NCBI RefSeq assembly: GCF_028993615.1
Contig: NZ_CP118632.1
Coordinates: 1,178,001-1,242,000 of the forward strand
Origin: Herbaspirillum sp. WKF16
GTDB taxonomy: Bacteria; Pseudomonadota; Gammaproteobacteria; Burkholderiales; Burkholderiaceae_D
Length of the DNA: 64,000 nt
Direction: 5' to 3'
The position numbers were made by a program, and so were the translations under genes. A model generated the notes under the pieces. That model saw only the letters and a program-made list of their open reading frames with translations. It did no database searches and was not told where the DNA came from. Shown piece after piece: positions 47,865 to 56,865 of the stretch; the stretch's first letter is position 1, and each line of letters starts with the position of its first letter.

Positions 47865-48752
47865 CTACCCGAGCGCGGTCAGGTTCTCGCCGACCAGCCG
47901 GCCGATCAGGCTGGTGTCGGGCGATGCCGCCAGCGCGCGGGCGGTGTTTTGCTTGCCGGTGGCCAGCAGGCCGCCGGCCGGCGCGATCGTGTATTCGCTG
48001 TGGCAGGCGGGGCAGTAGAGGGTGTCGCCGGCTTGCGCCTGGCGCGGGCGCACGACGATGGGGCCGCAGGCGCCGCAGCGCTCCAGCGGAATGCCCTCGT
48101 CGCTGTGCCCGACGATATGCGCCAGTTCCGGGTTGTCGGCCAGGGCGATGAAAAGGGCGCCGAGCCGCGCGTCGAACTGGCGGCCGAGTTCGCTTTCGAT
48201 GATGCCCATGGCCCGCGCGATCGGCATGCCGGCGCGGTAGGGACGGGTGCTGGTCATGGCGTCGAAGGCGTCGCAGATGCCGACGATGCGGGCGACCAGC
48301 GGAATCTCCTCGCCGCGCCTGCCGAACGGATAGCCGCGTCCGTCCGGCGTCTCGTGGTGCAGCAGGACGGCATCCTCGGCCAGCGCCGCCAGCGGATGGC
48401 CGGCCAGCATGCGCAGGCCGATTTCCGGATGGGTCTTGATCACCTCGTACTCGGCGTCGTCCAGTTTGGATTTCTTGCCGAGCACGGCATCGGGAATGCC
48501 GATCTTCCCCAGGTCGTGCAGGAAGGCGCCGATGGCAATGCGCGCGACCTGCCCGGCATCGAGCCCGGCGGCCTGGGCCAGCAAGCGCGACAGGCGCGCC
48601 ACGCGCCACAGGTGGCCGCCGGTATACGGGTCGCGCGCCTCCACCGCCCAGGCCAGCAGGAACAGGCTGGACAGGAGTTTCTCGTCGCGTTGCGCGTCGC
48701 CGCCGGGCGAGGTCTTGCGCCTGGCGCGCGGCCACAGGGAAAGCAGGTTCAT
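47865..48752 (-). CDS. HD-GYP domain protein with C-terminal zinc ribbon
   Basis: A 295-aa protein. The HD-GYP phosphodiesterase domain (about 24-215) has HD at 79-80 in FLHDLGKIG, HHE at 132-134 and GYP at 140-142 in DGRGYP. Catalytic HD-GYP proteins hydrolyse cyclic di-GMP. A C-terminal CGAC (225-228) and CPAC (246-249) pair looks like a zinc ribbon, an unusual addition that could sense metal or redox state. There is no receiver domain. It is the last gene of the sigma-factor operon and overlaps the chlorite-dismutase-family gene by ATGA. Confidence 0.9.
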   Translation of the reverse strand: MNLLSLWPRARRKTSPGGDAQRDEKLLSSLFLLAWAVEARDPYTGGHLWRVARLSRLLAQAAGLDAGQVARIAIGAFLHDLGKIGIPDAVLGKKSKLDDAEYEVIKTHPEIGLRMLAGHPLAALAEDAVLLHHETPDGRGYPFGRRGEEIPLVARIVGICDAFDAMTSTRPYRAGMPIARAMGIIESELGRQFDARLGALFIALADNPELAHIVGHSDEGIPLERCGACGPIVVRPRQAQAGDTLYCPACHSEYTIAPAGGLLATGKQNTARALAASPDTSLIGRLVGENLTALG

Positions 48753-49327
48753 GCGGGGTCTCCATTTGCATTGTTGCCGGGCCTGGCCAGGCGGATATCG
48801 ACTTCACGCTCGACGAAGCGCCACTCGGCGCTTTGCCGCAGCCGCGCGACCAGCTCTTCAAAGGCGGCGGCATCGGCCGGCGCATATTCGAACCAGGTCA
48901 GGAAGTCGAAGGGCTGGCCCAGTTCGCGCGCGTGATACAGGCGGCGCGACACCGCCGGCAGGTAGTCGAAGCCGATGGCGATGTGGCGCGATTGTTCTTC
49001 CATGATGGCGCGGCGCTCGTCCTGCGCCAGCGCCCACCAGTGCGCGCTCTTGCGGATCGGGATCAGCGCCGCCCGGGTGGCTCGCGGCCGGCCCAGGCCT
49101 TGCTGGATGGCGGCGAGCCGGTCTGCTTCCTGGCGGGTGGTGTAGCGCGTATTGCTGGTGATGCCCTGGAGTTGCCAGCTTGCGCCGGCCTCCGATGCGG
49201 CGTGGCGCGCGTCGGCTATTGCGAGGCGCGATGCGGGCGCCAGCGGCTCGCCGCTGACCGGCGCGATGCGTTCGATCTGCCAGTCGCCGGCGGCGCCGGC
49301 GATGAAGCGGGTATGGATGAGGGACAC
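48749..49327 (-). CDS. Chlorite-dismutase-family heme protein (short, dimeric lineage)
   Basis: A 192-aa protein. Residues 90-185 show the Cld pattern: KSAHWWALAQDERRAIMEE, then the likely proximal heme ligand His115 in SRHIAIG, LPAVSRRLYHARELG, DFLTWFEYAP and a final EWRFVEREVDIRL. Arg128 lies exactly 13 residues after His115, the same spacing as between the proximal His and the distal catalytic Arg of short chlorite dismutases as I recall them. Enzymes with this Arg turn chlorite into chloride and O2. HemQ-type homologues are longer (about 250 aa). It lies 19 bp after the first NrsF-like gene and overlaps the HD-GYP gene. A role in oxidant or hypochlorite-derived stress is inferred. Confidence 0.82.
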   Translation of the reverse strand: MSLIHTRFIAGAAGDWQIERIAPVSGEPLAPASRLAIADARHAASEAGASWQLQGITSNTRYTTRQEADRLAAIQQGLGRPRATRAALIPIRKSAHWWALAQDERRAIMEEQSRHIAIGFDYLPAVSRRLYHARELGQPFDFLTWFEYAPADAAAFEELVARLRQSAEWRFVEREVDIRLARPGNNANGDPA

Positions 49328-49346: not shown

Positions 49347-49988
49347 TTACCAGCGCAGCAGGCGCGGGCCCAGCAGCAGGCCGGCCGCGGCAGGGATGAG
49401 CATGCCCAGGAAATACCACAGCCCCCAGAACGGCACGCCCATCTCCGGGCAGTGCAGGCAATACACCATGGTGGCGACGGCGCCTGCCAGCAGGCCGGCC
49501 ACGGCGCCGGCCAGGCGCAGCCGGGTAGGCGCCATCGCGCGCACGGCCCAGACGATGGCGGCGCACAGCGGCAGCGACAGCAGGGCGATATTGAAGGGGC
49601 AGCTGCGCCAGGTAAATCCCATCAGTAGCGGCAGGCGTTCGGCGGCCGGCGCCACCGCCAGCACGAGCGCGCCGGCGAGCCAGATCGCCAGGCTCGGGGC
49701 GGCGATGCCGGCCCAGTTGGCGCCGACCCGCTGGCCGGGGCGCAACAGGCGGCGCAGCACCAGCAGCGAACCGGCCGCCAGCGTGGTGGGGAAGGCCAGC
49801 TTGATCCAGAACAACGGCGCCCACAACATCGCCTTCAGGTCAGGGCGCAGCCCGTAGATCAGCAACAGCAGCGCCAGCGAGCCGGCGCTGCCCAGCGCCA
49901 GCGCCTGCGCCATGCGCCGCAGGGGCAGGCGACGGTCCACCGGCGCGACGCCGGCGGCCATCATCGATATCAGGTCATCGGTTTTCAT
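49347..49988 (-). CDS. NrsF-like anti-sigma factor (DUF1109), copy 1
   Basis: A 213-aa membrane protein with six hydrophobic segments and the DUF1109 pattern: CPFNIALLSLP near residue 130, MAPTRLRLAGAVAGLLAGA near 152, then CLHCPEMGVPFWGLWYFLGM. Cys130 and Cys180 correspond to the conserved Cys pair through which Caulobacter NrsF releases SigF on oxidant or metal stress. It begins 2 bases after the sigma gene stop, so the two are translationally coupled. A second copy lies on the other side of the sigma gene. Confidence 0.87.
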   Translation of the reverse strand: MKTDDLISMMAAGVAPVDRRLPLRRMAQALALGSAGSLALLLLIYGLRPDLKAMLWAPLFWIKLAFPTTLAAGSLLVLRRLLRPGQRVGANWAGIAAPSLAIWLAGALVLAVAPAAERLPLLMGFTWRSCPFNIALLSLPLCAAIVWAVRAMAPTRLRLAGAVAGLLAGAVATMVYCLHCPEMGVPFWGLWYFLGMLIPAAAGLLLGPRLLRW

Positions 49989-49990
49989 GA

Positions 49991-50632
49991 TTACAGCTTC
50001 TCCCGGATTTTGGCGGCCAGCGCCTTGAGGCCGCGGTGGATGCCGACCTTCACCGCCGATTCGCTCATGCCGGTCAGTGCGGCGGTTTCCGCCACCGACA
50101 TGCCCTCCAGCTTGACGTGCACGATCGGCAGGCGCTGGCGGTCGGGCAACTGTTCCAGCAGCGCGCCGACATCGCGGCGGGCCTGCGCCGGCTCCTCGTC
50201 GCAGGCGGCGAACAGCTCGTGCTCGTCGTCCAGCGGATCGTTGAAGGCCTCGCGGCGCGAGCGCGCGCGCAGGAAGTCCATCAGCTTGTAGCGCGCGATG
50301 GCGTGCACCCATGCCGTCAGCGGCTGGTCGGCGCGGTAGGTGTGGCGCGCGTTGTGCACGGCCAGCAGGGTTTCCTGGACGATGTCCTCGACTTCGTCCT
50401 GCATGTGCTGCAGCCGCTTGCGCAGGAAGGCGCGCAGGCGGCCGCTGAGTTCGGAGAGGAAGTCGCGATAGGCGACGGCGTCGCCGTCCAGCCCGGCCAG
50501 CAGCAGCGCGCGCAGGCGCTCCTCGGTCGGGTGCGCGGGCTCCTTGCCGGCCAGCGGCGTCATCGAACGGCCGGCCGCGCCGTCGTGGAAGGCGGACAAT
50601 TCATGGGCGAATAACGGTTGGCTATCGGTCAT
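49991..50632 (-). CDS. sigF: ECF sigma factor, SigF type (NrsF partner)
   Basis: A 213-aa sigma factor. An N-terminal extension of about 35 residues is followed by region 2 ([40 protein letters not shown]) and region 4 ([33 protein letters not shown]). The [10 protein letters not shown] and [14 protein letters not shown] signatures are those of the group paired with DUF1109/NrsF membrane anti-sigmas. It is flanked by two such anti-sigma genes (16-bp and 2-bp gaps). The divergent intergenic region has two copies of one promoter type, so it likely activates its own operon and the bufferin operon. Confidence 0.9.
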
Positions 50633-50648: not shown

Positions 50649-51305
50649 TTACCAGCGCAGCAGCACGGGGCCGGACAAGGCGCCCAGCAGGGTCGGGCCC
50701 AGCACGCCCAGCACGTACCAGATGCCCCAGAACGGCGGCGCCATTTCCACGCAATAGAGTGAATAGACTAGCACGCCCTGCGCGCCCGCCACCAGGCCGG
50801 CGATGGCGCCGGCGGCCATCAGCCGGGTCGGCGCCCGGCCGCGCATGAACCAGAACATGGCCGCCAGCGTCGGCAGCGAGAGCAAGGCGACGTTTCCCGA
50901 GCAGACTTCCCAGGTGCTGCCCAGCAGCAGTTCCAGCCGCTGCGAAGGCGGCGCCAGCGCCAGCCAGCCGGCGCCGGCCAGCCACAGCGCCGCCGGCGGC
51001 AGCAGCAGGGCGGCGGCCGGCCCCAGGCCGATGCGCACGCCCGGCCTTGCCAGCCGCGCGGCCGTGGCCTGCGCCGCCAGCAGCACGGCCAGCGGGAACG
51101 AGACCTTGAGCCAGAACAGCGGCTGCAACAGCAGCGCCGGCATGTCGCTGCGCACGCCGTAGATCACGGCCAGCAGCAGCGCCGAACCGCCCAGGCCGGC
51201 CGCCAGCGCCAGGGCCATGCGCGCGCCGTCGCCGCCGGCCGGGCGTTTGCCGCCCGGGCCGCCGGTGCCTGCCGCCAGCATGTCCACCAATTCCATTGTC
51301 TTCAT
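50649..51305 (-). CDS. NrsF-like anti-sigma factor (DUF1109), copy 2
   Basis: A 218-aa membrane protein of the same family as the gene at 49347. It shares the start [22 protein letters not shown] (Cys135), [20 protein letters not shown] and [18 protein letters not shown] (Cys185). The two Cys are 50 residues apart, as in copy 1. Identity between the copies is moderate, so this is an established paralogue pair and not a recent duplication. It is the first gene of the minus-strand operon, 46 bases from the putative promoter. Confidence 0.87.
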
Positions 51306-51350
51306 GGTTGCCCTCTTTATCCCTCGGTGCGCGCAGCGCGCTTTATTCCT

Positions 51351-51379
51351 TATTCGCCGGTCGGGCCGATCCGGTTACA
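51351..51379 (-). promoter_or_regulatory. SigF-type promoter of the anti-sigma/sigma operon
   Basis: Read on the minus strand: TGTAACC (51379 to 51373), exactly 16 bases, then CGAATA (51356 to 51351). This is the same architecture as the promoter facing the bufferin genes. As I recall it, the Caulobacter SigF consensus is GTAACC-N16-CGAA. Confidence 0.82.
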
Positions 51380-51410
51380 GCATGCGCAAAAAATATTTCC
51401 CGGCGATGCC

Positions 51411-51439
51411 TGTAACCGGGACGCCCGGCCCGGCGAAAT
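51411..51439 (+). promoter_or_regulatory. SigF-type promoter of the bufferin operon
   Basis: TGTAACC at 51411-51417, exactly 16 bases, then CGAAAT at 51434-51439, 76 bp before the precursor ATG. It mirrors the minus-strand promoter 31 bp away, with identical -35 heptamer and spacing. Confidence 0.85.
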
Positions 51440-51515
51440 AACTTGCAGACCGGCAGCAAACCAGCCGCCGGCCGCATCCACTTTCAACCTGTTCAATTTT
51501 TCAAGGAGCCGCACC

Positions 51516-51794
51516 ATGAATACCCGTATCGTCGCTACCGCCGCCTTCACCCTCGCCACCCTGGCCTCGGGCGTGGCCATGGCGCAAAACCAGCAACCCG
51601 CCGCCAAGACCGCCGTCGAGAAGTGCTACGGCGTTTCCATGGCCGGCCAGAACGACTGCAAGGCCGGCGAAGGCACCACCTGCGCCGGCACCGCCACGAT
51701 GGACTACCAGGGCAATGCCTGGAAGAACGTCCCGGCCGGCACCTGCGCCTCGATCAAGACCCCGCGCGGCATGGGTTCGCTCAAGCCCTTCTGA
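51516..51794 (+). CDS. bufA1: Bufferin-type RiPP precursor (BufA1-like, DUF2282)
   Basis: A 92-aa precursor with a Sec signal peptide ([19 protein letters not shown]) and a mature part containing four Cys: 37 (EKCYGV), 48 (NDCKAG), 56 (TTCAGT) and 77 (GTCASI). In bufferins the MNIO enzyme converts central Cys residues to thiooxazole-type groups and the mature peptide sequesters copper in the periplasm. EKCYG, AGQNDC and VPAGTC are family signatures. The C-terminal extension ([13 protein letters not shown]) is basic. AAGGAG lies 7 bases before the ATG. It is first in the operon bufA1-bufB-bufC-doxX-mcp-methyltransferase. The metal is not proven here. Confidence 0.92.
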
Positions 51795-51808
51795 GGCGGA
51801 ACGCGCAC

Positions 51809-52660
51809 ATGAACGCAGCGCCTTTGGCCGCCGGCCTCGGCCTCAAGCCCCAGCATTTCGACGCGGCGTTGTCCTGCGCCGCGCCGGGCTTGTGGTTCGA
51901 GGTCCATCCGGAGAACTACCTGATGGATGGCGGCCCGCGGCTGGCCTGGCTGGAGGCGGTGCGCAGCCGCCATCGGCTGGCGCTGCACGGCGTCTCGCTG
52001 TCGCTGGCCGGGCCGGACGCGCCCGACCCGGTCCATTTGCGGCGGCTGGCCGCGCTGGCCGCGCGCATCGAGCCGGCGCTGGTGTCCGAGCACCTGGCCT
52101 GGTCGCGCGCCGACGGCCGTTACTTCCCCGACCTGCTGCCGGTGCCGCGCACCGGCGCCACGCTGGCGCGGCTGGCGGCCAATATCGCGCGCACGCAGGA
52201 TGCGCTCAGGCGCCGCATCGCGCTGGAAAATCCTTCGCATTACCTGCGCATGGATGGCCATGAATGGAGCGAGCCCGAGTTCCTGCGCGAGCTGGTGCGC
52301 CGCACCGGCTGCGGCCTGCTGGTGGACGTCAACAACGTGCACGTCAGCGCGGCCAACCTGGGCCTCGATGCCCAGGCCTATCTTGAGCAACTGCCGGCCG
52401 AGGCCATCGAGGAGATCCACCTGGCCGGCCACAGCAGCGACGCCGGCCTGCCCGGCCTGCTGGTCGACTCGCACGACGCCGCAGTGGCGCCGGCGGTCTG
52501 GGACCTGTACCGCGGGCTGGTGGCGCGCATCGGTCCGCGCCCGACGCTCATCGAGCGCGACGGCAAGCTGCCCGGCTTCGACGAGCTGCTGGCCGAACGC
52601 GACATCGCGCAGGGGATCCTCGACGGCTTGGACTCCACGCACCGGGAGCGCGCAGCGTGA
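51809..52660 (+). CDS. bufB: MNIO-family RiPP maturase BufB (DUF692)
   Basis: A 283-aa TIM-barrel multinuclear non-heme iron oxidase that modifies precursor Cys residues. Likely metal ligands are visible: H33 in FEVHPENY, H60 in [11 protein letters not shown]95 in SEHLAWS, E140 in ALENPSHY, the D173/N176/H178 region in DVNNVHVS, H204 and H208 in IHLAGHS, H222 in DSHD and E249 in IERDG. The start at 51809 lies 14 bases past the precursor stop; the frame is open further upstream only as a shadow of bufA1. It overlaps bufC by GTGA. Confidence 0.93.
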
Positions 52661-53403
52661 ACGACCACGATTACTACCGCGCGTTCCTGCACGCCGTATG
52701 GCATGACCGCAGCGCCGATCCGCTGGTGGCGTCGCTGCTGGCGCAGCCGGCTTTCGCGGTCTACCGCAATACGATTTTCAAGGGCTGCGTGGATGCCCTC
52801 GCGGCCAACTATCCGGCGGTGCAGCGGCTGGTCGGCGCGCAGTGGTTCCAGGGCGCGGCGCTGGCCTACGCGCGCCGGAACATGCCGCAGGATGCCAGCC
52901 TGATCGCCTATGGCGATGGCTTTGCGGCGTTCCTCTCCGGCCTGGAGGAGGCAAGCGAGTTGCCTTACCTGGCCGGCGTGGCGGCGCTGGATCGCTGTTG
53001 GACCGAAGCGCACCTGGCGGCCGACGACGCCGCGCTCGACGCCGCCGCCCTGCATGCCGCGCTGGCGGCCGGGCAGGACGTGCGACTGGTCCCGCACGCG
53101 GCGGCGCGCTGGCGCTGGGAGCCGGCGCATCCGGCGTATTCGATCTGGTCGGCCAATCGTGAAGCCGTCGAGACGCCGGATGAACTCGCCTGGCGCGCCG
53201 AGGGCGCGCTGCTGACCCGGCCCGTGGGCGAGGTGCGGTGGCAAGGCATCGGGCCCGGCGCGTGCCGTTTCCTCGACGCTTGCGGCGATGGCGCGGGCGT
53301 GGCCGCATCGGCCGCGCTGGCGCTGGAGGCCGAGCCCGGGCTGGACGTGGCCGCCATGCTTGGCGCGCTGCTGCAGGCGGGCGCCTTTACTTCCTTTCAT
53401 TGA
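52657..53403 (+). CDS. bufC: BufC, DUF2063-family partner of the MNIO maturase
   Basis: A 248-aa protein. Its N-terminal DUF2063 domain (about 1-95) has [28 protein letters not shown] and an ending [13 protein letters not shown]. This domain acts as precursor-recognition partner for MNIO enzymes in several RiPP systems; the old label 'DNA-binding' is misleading. The start is GTG, overlapping the bufB stop (GTGA), with GGGAG upstream. It is needed for maturation in characterised bufferin loci; here this is inferred from synteny. Confidence 0.9.
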
Positions 53404-53414
53404 TGGAGAACGAC

Positions 53415-53891
53415 ATGAACAAGCCTGGTCCGATGGATGCCGGCAAGCCGCCGCGCGTACCGCAATCCCTGTGGTCGCGCGGCGCCGGCCTGGCGCAGCA
53501 CCTGATCGGCGACTCGCTGCTGGCGCTGGTGGCGCGGGGCGCGATCGCCGCCATCTTCTTTCTTTCCGGCCGCACCAAGGTCAGCGGTTTTCTTACGATC
53601 AAGGACGGCACCTACGCGCTGTTCCAGGAGGAGTACCGCTTGCCGCTGGTGCCGCCCGATCTCGCCGCTCACCTGGCAGCGTATGCCGAACACCTGTTCC
53701 CGCTGCTGCTGGTGCTGGGCCTGTTCACGCGCGGCGCCGCGCTGGCGCTGCTGGGCATGACGGCGGTGATCGAGATCTTCGTCTATCCGGATGCCTGGCC
53801 CACCCACCTGTCGTGGGCCGGCCTGCTGCTGTTGCTGGTGGCGCGCGGCGGCGGCGCCTGGTCGCTGGACCGCCGCCTGGGCATTCGCTGA
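53415..53891 (+). CDS. DoxX-family inner-membrane protein
   Basis: A 158-aa membrane protein with four hydrophobic helices and the DoxX pattern ([79 protein letters not shown]). DoxX proteins commonly accompany bufABC; a redox or thiol-related role in the membrane is suspected but unproven. The ATG at 53415 has GGAGA 6 bases upstream. An in-frame ATG at 53403, overlapping the bufC stop, is an alternative. Confidence 0.9.
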
Positions 53892-53908: not shown

Positions 53909-55537
53909 ATGTTCGCCAGACTGAAAATCCGCACCGGCCTGCTGCTGGTGCTGGGCATCTTCTCGCTCGCGCTGTGGTGCGCGGTGACCCTGGCCTGGAG
54001 TGGCGCACGCTCGGCGGCGCAGGCCGCAACCGCGCTGATCGACTTGTCGGAGCGGCGCATCCAGCCGTTGCACGACACCGAGCGCCTGTTCCTCGTCACC
54101 CTGCTCAACATGGACAACGCTTATATCAACCTGCTCAAGGGCGACGAGGTGAAGTCCAACGACTACACCCGCCGCGCCTCGGCCGCGCTGCAGGAGGCGA
54201 AGAAGACCTTCGACGCCTACCGTCGCGCGCCCGCGCCGCAGCCGATGGCCGATGCCGACGCCCCGCGCGTGGCCCAGGCCTACGAGGCTTATGCCAGGGT
54301 GCTCGGCCAGCGCGAGGTGGCGCTGTACGACGTCTCGCTGGACGATTACGCCGCGGCCACCGCCAGCGCCGAAGCGGCTGACCGCGCGTTCGCCGCGATC
54401 CTGCGCGAGGTGATCGGCCACGCCGAGGCGGTGCACGGGGAGCTGCGGCTGGCGTCCGAGCGGCGCTACGCCGTGGCTTCCTGGCTGGCGGCGGCGATGC
54501 TGGCCTGCTCGCTGTTGCTGGTCGGCCTGTACTGGATGCTGTTCGACCGCGTCCTGCTGCGGCCGCTGAAGGAGGCGGGCCGGCATTTCGAGCGCATCGC
54601 CGGCGGCGATCTCGGCACGCCGGTACGCGGCATCTCCGGCAACGAGATCGGCACGCTGCTGGCAGCGCTGGCGCGCATGCAGCATGGCCTGGCCGGCACC
54701 GTCGCGCGCATTCGCGACGCCACCGGCGACGTTCACCGCGGCGCCCGCGAGATCGCGCGCGGCAACGGCGAGCTGGCCCAGCGTACCGAACAGCAGGCGG
54801 CCGCCCTGGAGGAGACCGCCGCCACGCTGGAACAGCTGTCGTCGGCGGTGCGCAACAACGCCGAGAACGCCGGCCGCACCAACGAACTGGCGGCAGCGGC
54901 GGCGCGCGATGCCGAGCGCGGCGGCCAGGTGATGGGCGGCATCGCCGGCGCGATGGCGCAGGTGACGGCCAGCGCCGCGCGCATATCGGACATCGCCGGC
55001 GTGATCGACGGCATCGCCTTCCAGACCAATATCCTGGCGCTGAACGCCTCGGTGGAGGCGGCCCGCGCCGGCGCCCAGGGACGGGGCTTCGCCGTCGTTG
55101 CGGCGGAAGTGCGCTCGCTGGCGCTGCGCAGCGCGCAGGCGGCGCGCGAGGTCAAGGGCCTGATCTCGGATTCGATCGACTCGGTCGGCCAGGCGTCGGA
55201 CCAGGTGGCGCAGGCCGATCGGGCCATCGGCCAGATCGTCGGATCGTTCAGCCAGGTCATGAAGACCGTCAACGAAATCGCTACCGCCACGCGCGAACAG
55301 GCCGAAGGCATCGGCCAGGTCAGCCGCACGCTGGTGGAGATGGATCGCTCCACCCAGCAGAACGCCGCGCTGGTCGAGCAGACCTCGGCGGCCGCCGCAG
55401 CCCTGACGACGCAGGCCGGCGCGCTGGCCGCATCGGTCGCCGTGTTCTCAGCGCCGGCGCCGGTGCCGGGAGATACGACGCGCATGGCCGCCGCAGCGGC
55501 GTTGCCATCGCAAACCGCGGCCCTGTTGCCGCACTGA
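53909..55537 (+). CDS. Methyl-accepting chemotaxis protein in the bufferin operon
   Basis: A 542-aa chemoreceptor. It has a first membrane helix near residue 12-32, a periplasmic four-helix sensor with DTERLFLVTLLNMDNAYINLLKGDEVKSND near 70, a second helix near 192-212 and HAMP. The signalling tip [20 protein letters not shown] lies near 370, with S where most have A. There is no C-terminal tether motif; the tail is Ala/Pro-rich. It starts 17 bp after the doxX stop with GGAG ahead of the ATG, so it is most likely cotranscribed with bufA1BC-doxX. This would place a taxis response under the stress sigma factor. Confidence 0.92.
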   Translation: MFARLKIRTGLLLVLGIFSLALWCAVTLAWSGARSAAQAATALIDLSERRIQPLHDTERLFLVTLLNMDNAYINLLKGDEVKSNDYTRRASAALQEAKKTFDAYRRAPAPQPMADADAPRVAQAYEAYARVLGQREVALYDVSLDDYAAATASAEAADRAFAAILREVIGHAEAVHGELRLASERRYAVASWLAAAMLACSLLLVGLYWMLFDRVLLRPLKEAGRHFERIAGGDLGTPVRGISGNEIGTLLAALARMQHGLAGTVARIRDATGDVHRGAREIARGNGELAQRTEQQAAALEETAATLEQLSSAVRNNAENAGRTNELAAAAARDAERGGQVMGGIAGAMAQVTASAARISDIAGVIDGIAFQTNILALNASVEAARAGAQGRGFAVVAAEVRSLALRSAQAAREVKGLISDSIDSVGQASDQVAQADRAIGQIVGSFSQVMKTVNEIATATREQAEGIGQVSRTLVEMDRSTQQNAALVEQTSAAAAALTTQAGALAASVAVFSAPAPVPGDTTRMAAAAALPSQTAALLPH

Positions 55538-55548
55538 TTGGAGCCAGG

Positions 55549-56865
55549 ATGTCGCATTCGGGAGAGTTGGAGCAGTTCATCGGACAGGCCTTCGAGGCCG
55601 CATTCGCGTCGCATGCCGCCGGCCGGCTGGATGAAGCCGAGCAAGAGTATCGCCTGTTGCTGGAACTGGACGAGGGCCACGCCGGCGCCATGCATTACCT
55701 GGGCATCCTGATGCACCAGCGCGGCAGGCATGACGAGGCGCTGGCGTACCTGTTGCGGGCGGGGGCGCTGGCGCCGCATGAGGCGGACTGGCGCAACGAC
55801 CTGGGCAACGTGCTGTTCGCGCGCGAGCGCTTCGGCGAAGCCGCTGCCGCCTATCGCGAGGCGCTGGCGCTGCGTCCGGGCGACGCCCAACTGTGGAACA
55901 ACTGCGGCGCCGCCCTGCGCGCCCAGGGGGCGGATGATGAGGCTACGCAGGCTTGCCTGCGCGCGCTGGAACTGGCCCCGGGGTTTGGCGCGGCCATGCT
56001 GCAGCTGGCCGAGCTATACGAGCGCGCCGGCGACCGCATGCAAGCTTCGCGTTACCAGTGCATGGCCTATGTGCTGCCGCCGCACGAGGGAAAGTCGCGC
56101 GAGATGCTGGGCATTTCGTACTACTTCCTGGGGCGTGTGGAGGAGGCTGCCCAGGTGTGCCGGCAATGGCTGGAAGAGGAACCCGGCAACCCGACCGCGC
56201 GGCATATGCATGCCGCCTATGCCGGCCTGCCGGCGGACTCGGCGGCGCCGGCCTACATCACCCGCCGCTTCGACGACTATGCCGACAGCTTCGACGCCAA
56301 CCTGGTCACGCATCTCGGGTATCGCGGCCCGCAGGTGCTGGCCGGTTTGCTGGACGCCGCGCTGGGAAAAGACCGGCCATTGGCCGACGTGCTCGACGCC
56401 GGGTGCGGCACCGGCCTGTGCGCTCCGGCGCTGGCGCCGCGCGCACGCCGCCTGGACGGCATCGACCTGTCGGAAAACATGTTGCGGCATGCGGCCGCGC
56501 GCGCAAGCTATACCCATCTGGCCCAGGCCGAGGCGGCCGACTGGATGGAGGCGCGCCGGGCGCAGTACGACCTGGTGTCGGCCTGCGACGTGCTGATCTA
56601 CTGCGGCCGGCTGGCGCGTTTCTTCGCGGCCGCGCGGCACGCGTTGCGCGCCGGCGGCCATTTCATCTTCACGGTGGAAGCCGCGCGGCAAGAATGCACG
56701 GACGGCTATTTCCTGCATCCCAGCGGCCGCTTCCGCCATCGGCGCGATTATGTGGAGGCAAGCTTGCGCGACGCCGGGCTTGAATTGATGGTCATGCGCG
56801 AGGAGAGCCTGCGCGTGGAAATGGGGCAGCCGGTGCCGGGGCTGGTGGTGCTGGCAAGGGCCTGA
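55549..56865 (+). CDS. TPR-repeat methyltransferase (TPR plus SAM-dependent methyltransferase)
   Basis: A 438-aa cytoplasmic protein. Residues 1-225 are TPRs (EAEQEYRLLLELDEGHAGAMHYLG, EAAAAYREALALRPGDAQLWNNCG, EAAQVCRQWLEEEPGN). Residues 230-438 form a class I methyltransferase with the SAM motif VLDAGCGTGLCAPAL near 285 and GIDLSENML near 308. This architecture belongs to a family of uncharacterised TPR-methyltransferases. It starts 11 bp after the chemoreceptor, so it is the last gene of the bufferin-headed operon. Its target is unknown; receptor or maturase-related protein methylation is only a guess. Confidence 0.87.
   Translation: MSHSGELEQFIGQAFEAAFASHAAGRLDEAEQEYRLLLELDEGHAGAMHYLGILMHQRGRHDEALAYLLRAGALAPHEADWRNDLGNVLFARERFGEAAAAYREALALRPGDAQLWNNCGAALRAQGADDEATQACLRALELAPGFGAAMLQLAELYERAGDRMQASRYQCMAYVLPPHEGKSREMLGISYYFLGRVEEAAQVCRQWLEEEPGNPTARHMHAAYAGLPADSAAPAYITRRFDDYADSFDANLVTHLGYRGPQVLAGLLDAALGKDRPLADVLDAGCGTGLCAPALAPRARRLDGIDLSENMLRHAAARASYTHLAQAEAADWMEARRAQYDLVSACDVLIYCGRLARFFAAARHALRAGGHFIFTVEAARQECTDGYFLHPSGRFRHRRDYVEASLRDAGLELMVMREESLRVEMGQPVPGLVVLARA

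Follow-up and report, generated by a model that had tools for sequence, protein, structure and literature searches.

Background

In Caulobacter, promoters of the ECF sigma factor SigF are reported as GTAACC-N16-CGAA, with start sites mapped by 5′RACE ahead of sigF itself and of each of the two bufferin-type operons (PMC3511200), and lacZ data have also been published for this system. Induction by copper and a copper-sensitive sigF mutant have been described (PMC8224329). In the published account, sigF shows no strong autoregulation and its promoter also responds to a second regulator, which counts against the autoregulation considered below. For ECF group 16 (ECF16) the promoter is given in print as tGTAACc-N16-CGAA (PMC3420878), and a survey notes genes for a sigma factor and the anti-sigma factor NrsF in Buf1 clusters (PMC12452194). 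Primer extension has been published for ecfF of Bradyrhizobium, a gene that is 18.8-fold up without its anti-sigma factor OsrA; the second cysteine of OsrA is described as needed for sigma release, the first perhaps for sigma binding (PMC3420878). Start sites of the divergent promoters of the Brucella BcrS-AbcS system have likewise been determined by 5′RACE (PMC8315932).

In Cupriavidus metallidurans, two reports identified no promoter ahead of the gig operon, treat control of gig by the sigma factor RpoQ as assumed rather than demonstrated and call RpoR a paralogue of RpoQ (PMC10304878, PMC11022561). A further paper states that gig is under RpoQ control, citing older work (PMC7563307). Against such control, gig induction is reported to survive deletion of rpoQ, and transcription of rpoQ-rsqA has been assigned to RpoD (PMC10304878).

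Here, we describe the divergent region between a sigma/anti-sigma operon and a bufferin operon in Herbaspirillum sp. WKF16, analysed within a window of 64,000 nucleotides (64 kb; contig NZ_CP118632.1, positions 1,178,001 to 1,242,000). Because the motif, start sites, copper response and Buf1 association are already published, this divergon is a known type of system; the promoter pair was not found described for Herbaspirillum in the titles and abstract openings of the open-licence papers listed. To this we add AT-rich sequence ahead of each −35 box, an exact promoter pair in the gig/rpoQ divergon and, in many Herbaspirillum genomes, a second, diverged NrsF. For Burkholderiales, the result is a sharp predicted map of the promoters behind copper-binding bufferin peptides.

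Gene content of the divergon

The sigma operon lies on the minus strand and opens with the gene for NrsF1 (50649..51305; 218 aa), a second anti-sigma homologue that scores 202.3 bits against the Pfam NrsF profile. It is followed by the gene for a SigF/RpoQ-like ECF sigma factor (49991..50632, minus strand; 213 aa) and by that for NrsF2 (49347..49988, minus strand; 213 aa), the anti-sigma homologue downstream of the sigma gene, which reaches 236.2 bits on the same profile (cut-off 26.8 bits). Regions 2 and 4 are both present in the sigma factor (Pfam Sigma70_r2 and r4_2), which scores 333.5 bits on NCBIfam PRK12536 (cut-off 250) and has its best matches among named species in Herbaspirillum. 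On NCBIfam AntiSigF_NrsF (NF042994, cut-off 300), the NrsF copies score 100.3 and 146.9, outside the equivalog and inside the family, and a search for solved relatives of NrsF2 at E 0.1 returned nothing but one weak, spurious-looking match. The whole genome contains two NrsF genes, both at the divergon. ECF regions 2 and 4, adjacent DUF1109/NrsF genes, two conserved NrsF cysteines and the promoter motif described below are features that the locus shares with ECF16/SigF-NrsF systems.

The plus-strand operon encodes a bufferin-1-type precursor (DUF2282, GigP-like, 92 aa; 51516..51794; Pfam 86.6 bits over 22.4), a MNIO bufferin maturase of the GigA/BufB type (51809..52660; Pfam 322.7 bits; NCBIfam MNIO_BufB 349.7 over a cut-off of 310), a GigB-like DUF2063 partner protein (52657..53403; Pfam DUF2063 71.9 bits) and a GigT-like DoxX-family membrane protein (53415..53891; Pfam DoxX 59.8 bits), the gene set of a Bufferin-1 cluster. 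The score for Bufferin-2 (NCBIfam BufA2) is below the cut-off (24.7 against 60 bits), and the MNIO gene is the only one in the whole genome. The Pfam and NCBIfam profiles thus bear out the gene identities in the preliminary description, which had placed a sigma/anti-sigma operon beside a bufferin (RiPP) operon. The presence of two anti-sigma genes, the AT-rich sequence ahead of each −35 box and the published precedents in relatives go beyond that description.

Further genes adjoin both operons. A chemotaxis receptor (MCP) gene starts 18 bp past the DoxX gene and is followed by a TPR-methyltransferase gene (together 53909–56865, plus strand); both may belong to the bufferin transcript, and relatives of the MCP and of the TPR-methyltransferase occur after DoxX in L017 and in L016, respectively. 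Downstream of NrsF2 lie genes for a chlorite-dismutase-family protein (48749–49327, minus strand) and an HD-domain phosphohydrolase (47865–48752, minus strand; Pfam HD_5). Relatives of one or both adjoin NrsF in the Herbaspirillum-type loci L017, L046, L047 and L175; on a Pseudomonas plasmid (L076), NrsF has an HD-domain relative as its neighbour.

Two NrsF genes around one sigma gene

NrsF1 keeps Cys135 and Cys185, with Tyr replacing His before the second cysteine, and NrsF2 carries Cys130 and Cys180. The two cysteines are invariant in 29/29 aligned proteins and are both present in every one of the 104 rows, out of 107, that were placed up- or downstream of a sigma gene. In 93% of 90 downstream copies, His precedes the second cysteine. 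All 14 upstream copies have Tyr at this place and retain both cysteines.

Among the 27 genomes of the genus that bear NrsF, 14 have two NrsF genes on one strand about 1.3 kb apart from start to start, a spacing that leaves room for a sigma gene between them, and in 4 more the NrsF genes are about 2.0 kb apart. Loci in which two NrsF genes enclose the sigma gene include that of the window, L013–L017, L039 and L045–L047. A tree was built from 107 NrsF proteins, and its bootstrap is not fully settled; in it, the 14 sigma-upstream copies form one group with support 100/100, a clade separate from the other NrsF proteins to which NrsF1 belongs, and its next relatives are one NrsF of another genome of the genus (G808) and the outer tandem NrsF of G119, so that a recent local duplication is an unlikely origin for NrsF1. 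The G119 locus (L114), from another family of the order, has a tandem NrsF pair downstream of the sigma gene, the outer member of which clusters with the NrsF1 clade of Herbaspirillum.

An arrangement of two NrsF genes around one sigma gene was not found described in the titles and abstract openings of the open-licence papers listed. We tentatively suggest, as the less probable case, that in many Herbaspirillum the ECF sigma factor is held by two different NrsF proteins and that the divergon works as a two-input switch, in which, for example, copper might act through one NrsF and another metal or an oxidant through the other, on mirror promoters that in WKF16 share one central UP element and a regulon of two operons. 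The layout offers a natural case for how one sigma factor could read two signals.

Predicted promoter motifs in the divergent gap

The start codons of NrsF1 (51305, minus strand) and BufA (51516, plus strand), both assigned by reading, are separated by 210 bp. Read directly, this gap holds TGTAACC at 51379–51373, a 16-bp spacer and CGAATA at 51356–51351 on the minus strand, which make up the predicted SigF/ECF16 promoter of the sigma operon (51351..51379), and TGTAACC at 51411–51417, a 16-bp spacer and CGAAAT at 51434–51439 on the plus strand, the predicted promoter of the bufferin operon (51411..51439); both motifs are exact and conserved in relatives. The preliminary description had given the size of the divergent region, the two sequences and their identical heptamer and spacing correctly to the base, and the Caulobacter-like SigF consensus to which it matched them agrees with the forms in print (PMC3511200, PMC3420878).

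No Rfam match was obtained in 51000–51800. A terminator-like, rightward hairpin lies in the leader of the sigma operon (51326–51342, plus strand; two overlapping matches against 0.3 expected) and could block antisense reading into the promoter pair.

Motif frequency in the window, genome and genus

Within the 64-kb window, exact TGTAACC-N16-CGAAW occurs only at the two gap sites. Allowing up to two mismatches yields 3 matches where 2.51 are expected, which makes only exactness informative. The same holds for exact copies in the whole genome (4,986,464 bp, one contig), which has none besides the two gap sites, whereas with up to one mismatch 10 matches compare with 10 for the reversed-pattern control. 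The preliminary description had proposed such a genome-wide scan and had named frequent occurrence at random positions as an argument against its promoters; the motif is not frequent in this way.

The looser Caulobacter form GTAACC-N16-CGAA has 7 exact sites in the genome, the gap pair included, and is at chance level with up to one mismatch (138 matches, compared with 193 for the reversed pattern). The other five exact sites are all inside open frames of at least 100 aa, four of them in long frames, two of which share an identical 26-bp match, and one in a 102-aa frame that, read by eye, we take to be nuoK. At one of the four in long frames, L082, a 473-aa frame also starts 70 bp downstream, and this site may still be a promoter. 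A wider regulon was rejected, as the looser form does not rise above chance and its other exact sites lie within open frames, L082 being the one that may nevertheless act as a promoter. Since the motif is at chance level outside the divergon, the predicted regulon in WKF16 is the divergon itself.

Across the genus (34 genomes), the motif has 55 exact copies. Of these, 40 are arranged as 20 divergent pairs, with less than 200 bp between partners, which are spread over 18 genomes; the remaining 15 compare with 17 in the reversed-pattern control. The exact pair is present in 18 of the 27 genomes that bear NrsF and in none of the 7 without it. An exact site is absent from 9/34 genomes, which counts against the promoter reading.

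Conservation in relatives

A search with DNA alone for the whole divergent pair pattern (gap 20–50) matched 8 of 300 genomes of the order, WKF16 included, and the reversed control matched none. By tblastn, ECF and NrsF genes adjoin the pair in all eight of these loci and a divergent bufferin gene in seven. In loci fetched by protein, where a pair was defined by up to three mismatches in 22 positions and a gap of 15–150, each search took at most 30 loci, the best-scoring first, so that the samples are not random, and related loci are not independent in the counts. On this basis, the pair was present in 9/10 best-scoring ECF-fetched loci with NrsF (the miss being L022), a count that leaves out 14 further ECF-fetched loci without an NrsF match; in 25/26 best-scoring NrsF loci at family level (29 fetched, minus two duplicates and one without an ECF match on its piece; the miss being L054); and in 8/28 best-scoring NrsF loci at phylum level (29 fetched, one without a tblastn match dropped), where the 20 loci without a pair speak against the promoter reading. 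NrsF itself was matched in 36/145 family genomes and 81/398 phylum genomes.

Where a divergent bufferin gene is visible in these best-scoring sets, the pair accompanies it in 14 of 16 loci, both misses (L113 and L131) being at phylum level. Pairs were seen in 19/28 genera represented among the best-scoring protein-fetched loci, and letter-shuffled versions of the 64 regions gave none in 1280 trials. With spacers of 15–17 permitted, all exact matches among those listed (up to three per strand, including those from the 8 loci that the DNA-only search had fetched) had a spacer of 16. ECF-fetched loci without NrsF (L023–L034) served as negative control: a site with up to one mismatch was found in 0/12 in the 1 kb that precedes the ECF match, several of these matches covering part of the ECF gene only and thus less than 1 kb of true upstream sequence. 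Taken together, conservation in other genera favours the SigF-type promoter function that the preliminary description had predicted.

Some loci differ in layout. In L041–L043 (genus g51), a second TGTAACC-N16-CGAA lies about 410 bp along, nearer the bufferin gene, which is thus preceded by two sites in the same direction. On the Pseudomonas plasmid L076 (1687–2943), NrsF faces a bufferin operon, and the two members of the exact promoter pair there lie 108 bp from each other; an ECF gene was not found in the 6.8-kb stretch, and the sigma factor may be encoded elsewhere. An Asticcacaulis plasmid (L075, 27–2972) carries two facing MNIO operons with a TGTAACC-N16-CGTA pair between them, and genes for a sigma factor and NrsF at the end of one of the operons.

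An A/T tract between the −35 boxes

The pattern AAAWWTWTTTT is that of a distal UP element, which is bound by alpha-CTD. Between the two −35 boxes of WKF16, an A/T tract (51388..51398) reads AAATATTTTTT on the minus strand, which fits this pattern exactly, and ends 8 bp upstream of the minus −35 box and 12 bp upstream of the plus one. In relatives, the sequence ahead of each −35 box has an AT-rich block at −19 to −10 and then turns GC-rich: when each genus is counted once (19 loci), the AT fraction is 0.74 on the sigma side and 0.72 on the bufferin side within the block, and 0.34 and 0.27, respectively, at −9 to −1. The 31-bp gap of WKF16 has a single tract; many loci with a gap of about 41 bp show two, as judged by eye. 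The A-tract between the −35 boxes probably serves as an UP element, to which alpha-CTD would bind.

Proposed regulation and alternative explanations

From the sequence evidence, we consider it very probable that the two motifs are a divergent promoter pair for the adjacent ECF16/SigF sigma factor and serve both its own operon and the bufferin operon. The sigma gene sits 0.7 kb from the pair that its product would serve. In the resting cell, the membrane protein NrsF, in one or both copies, would hold the sigma factor; excess copper, or a comparable signal from another metal or an oxidant, would meet the conserved NrsF cysteines, upon which the sigma factor would be released. RNA polymerase would then bind the TGTAACC/CGAA elements on both strands, and the output would be the bufferin peptide and its maturation enzymes together with more sigma and anti-sigma factor. 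Start sites, inhibition by NrsF and the role of the cysteines are established for published relatives.

The sigma factor may instead drive only the bufferin promoter, with the sigma operon transcribed mainly by housekeeping RNA polymerase and its TGTAACC left as a relic or a weak auxiliary, a reading that we regard as rather unlikely. It draws on an asymmetry among the 42 pairs from best-scoring protein-fetched loci, many of them from close relatives: on the bufferin side the −35 heptamer is exact in 38/42 and has A at position 4 in 42/42, whereas on the sigma side it is exact in 24/42 and position 4 is changed in 15/42. With one locus per genus (the first taken), position 4 is changed in 4/19 on the sigma side versus 0/19 on the bufferin side. 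The reported assignment of C. metallidurans rpoQ-rsqA to RpoD (PMC10304878) and the weak autoregulation of Caulobacter sigF point the same way. Against this reading, the window has an exact sigma-side site, as do the 18/34 genomes of the genus with an exact pair, no sigma-70-type site was found in 51250–51560, and Bradyrhizobium ecfF is reported to be autoregulated, with its 18.8-fold increase without the anti-sigma factor (PMC3420878).

That another ECF16-like sigma factor of the genome uses the sites in place of the adjacent one appears very improbable, as both NrsF genes of the genome are at the divergon and the exact motif occurs nowhere else in it, even though C. metallidurans has the RpoQ paralogue RpoR and gig expression is reported to persist there without rpoQ. 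Still less probable is a dyad operator, that is, an inverted repeat that binds a dimeric transcription factor, with the promoters elsewhere. The promoter arms in WKF16 do form an inverted repeat of 28 nt with 82% complementarity, and the spacers (51357–51372 and 51418–51433) are mirror-like at 11/16 positions. In relatives, however, the half-sites lie at distances of 30 to 131 bp, whereas the step to CGAA keeps to 16 bp, and four phylum-level loci without a pair (from the best-scoring set) have single exact copies upstream of sigma genes. Spacer symmetry over 58 loci averages 5.2/16 against 4.7/16 for shuffled pairing (p about 0.03), and as this barely exceeds the shuffled value, extended symmetry was rejected as a feature common to the relatives. 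Chance matches in GC-rich DNA are a negligible explanation, for although the motif is at chance level with one or two mismatches, two exact mirror copies stand in the relevant gap of a genome otherwise without them and recur in other genera, and none of the 1280 shuffled regions gave a pair.

Helical phasing of the gap between the promoters was also considered and is not relied on: the circular test gave p 0.00005 to 0.0025 for periods of 9.5–11 bp, from 22 hand-picked values (about one mode per genus, Herbaspirillum twice, gaps above 70 bp omitted), some from loci fetched with a pattern that has a built-in gap of 20–50 bp.

Comparison with known systems

The predicted divergent promoter pair can be set beside four described systems. 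Bradyrhizobium EcfF-OsrA, also of ECF16, resembles WKF16 in its DUF1109 anti-sigma factor with two conserved cysteines and in the reported autoregulation of the sigma promoter, but its motif differs (GTAAC(g,a)-N14-15-(c,t)CG(t,a)) and its targets include methionine sulfoxide reductases (PMC3420878). BcrS-AbcS of Brucella (ECF16) shares divergent TGTAACC/CGAA promoters for the sigma and target operons; its target is an operon for a methionine-rich peptide that answers HOCl, not a bufferin operon (PMC8315932).

In C. metallidurans, gigPABT and rpoQ-rsqA are reported in the same gene order and direction as in WKF16 (PMC10304878, PMC11022561). One NrsF (RsqA) was found there by tblastn within a 6.8-kb stretch, whereas WKF16 has two. 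In strain CH34 (NC_007974.2; L074), the pair is exact in both directions, with a 32-bp gap and an A-tract between the sites, and is a candidate answer to the missing gig promoter (PMC10304878, PMC11022561). On motif evidence this supports direct control by RpoQ, while the deletion results oppose a simple dependence.

Caulobacter sigF//CC3254-3257 likewise has an ECF sigma factor and NrsF beside a DUF2282-DUF692(MNIO)-DUF2063-DoxX operon, with GTAACC-N16-CGAA upstream of both operons (PMC3511200). As described, the Caulobacter regulon also takes in CC2748 and another bufferin-type operon, and a single NrsF is named (PMC3511200), whereas WKF16 has one MNIO gene, no exact TGTAACC-N16-CGAAW elsewhere and two NrsF genes. 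The SigF-NrsF divergon is thus a design known from other bacteria, which in WKF16 is exact, single in the genome and common among its relatives.
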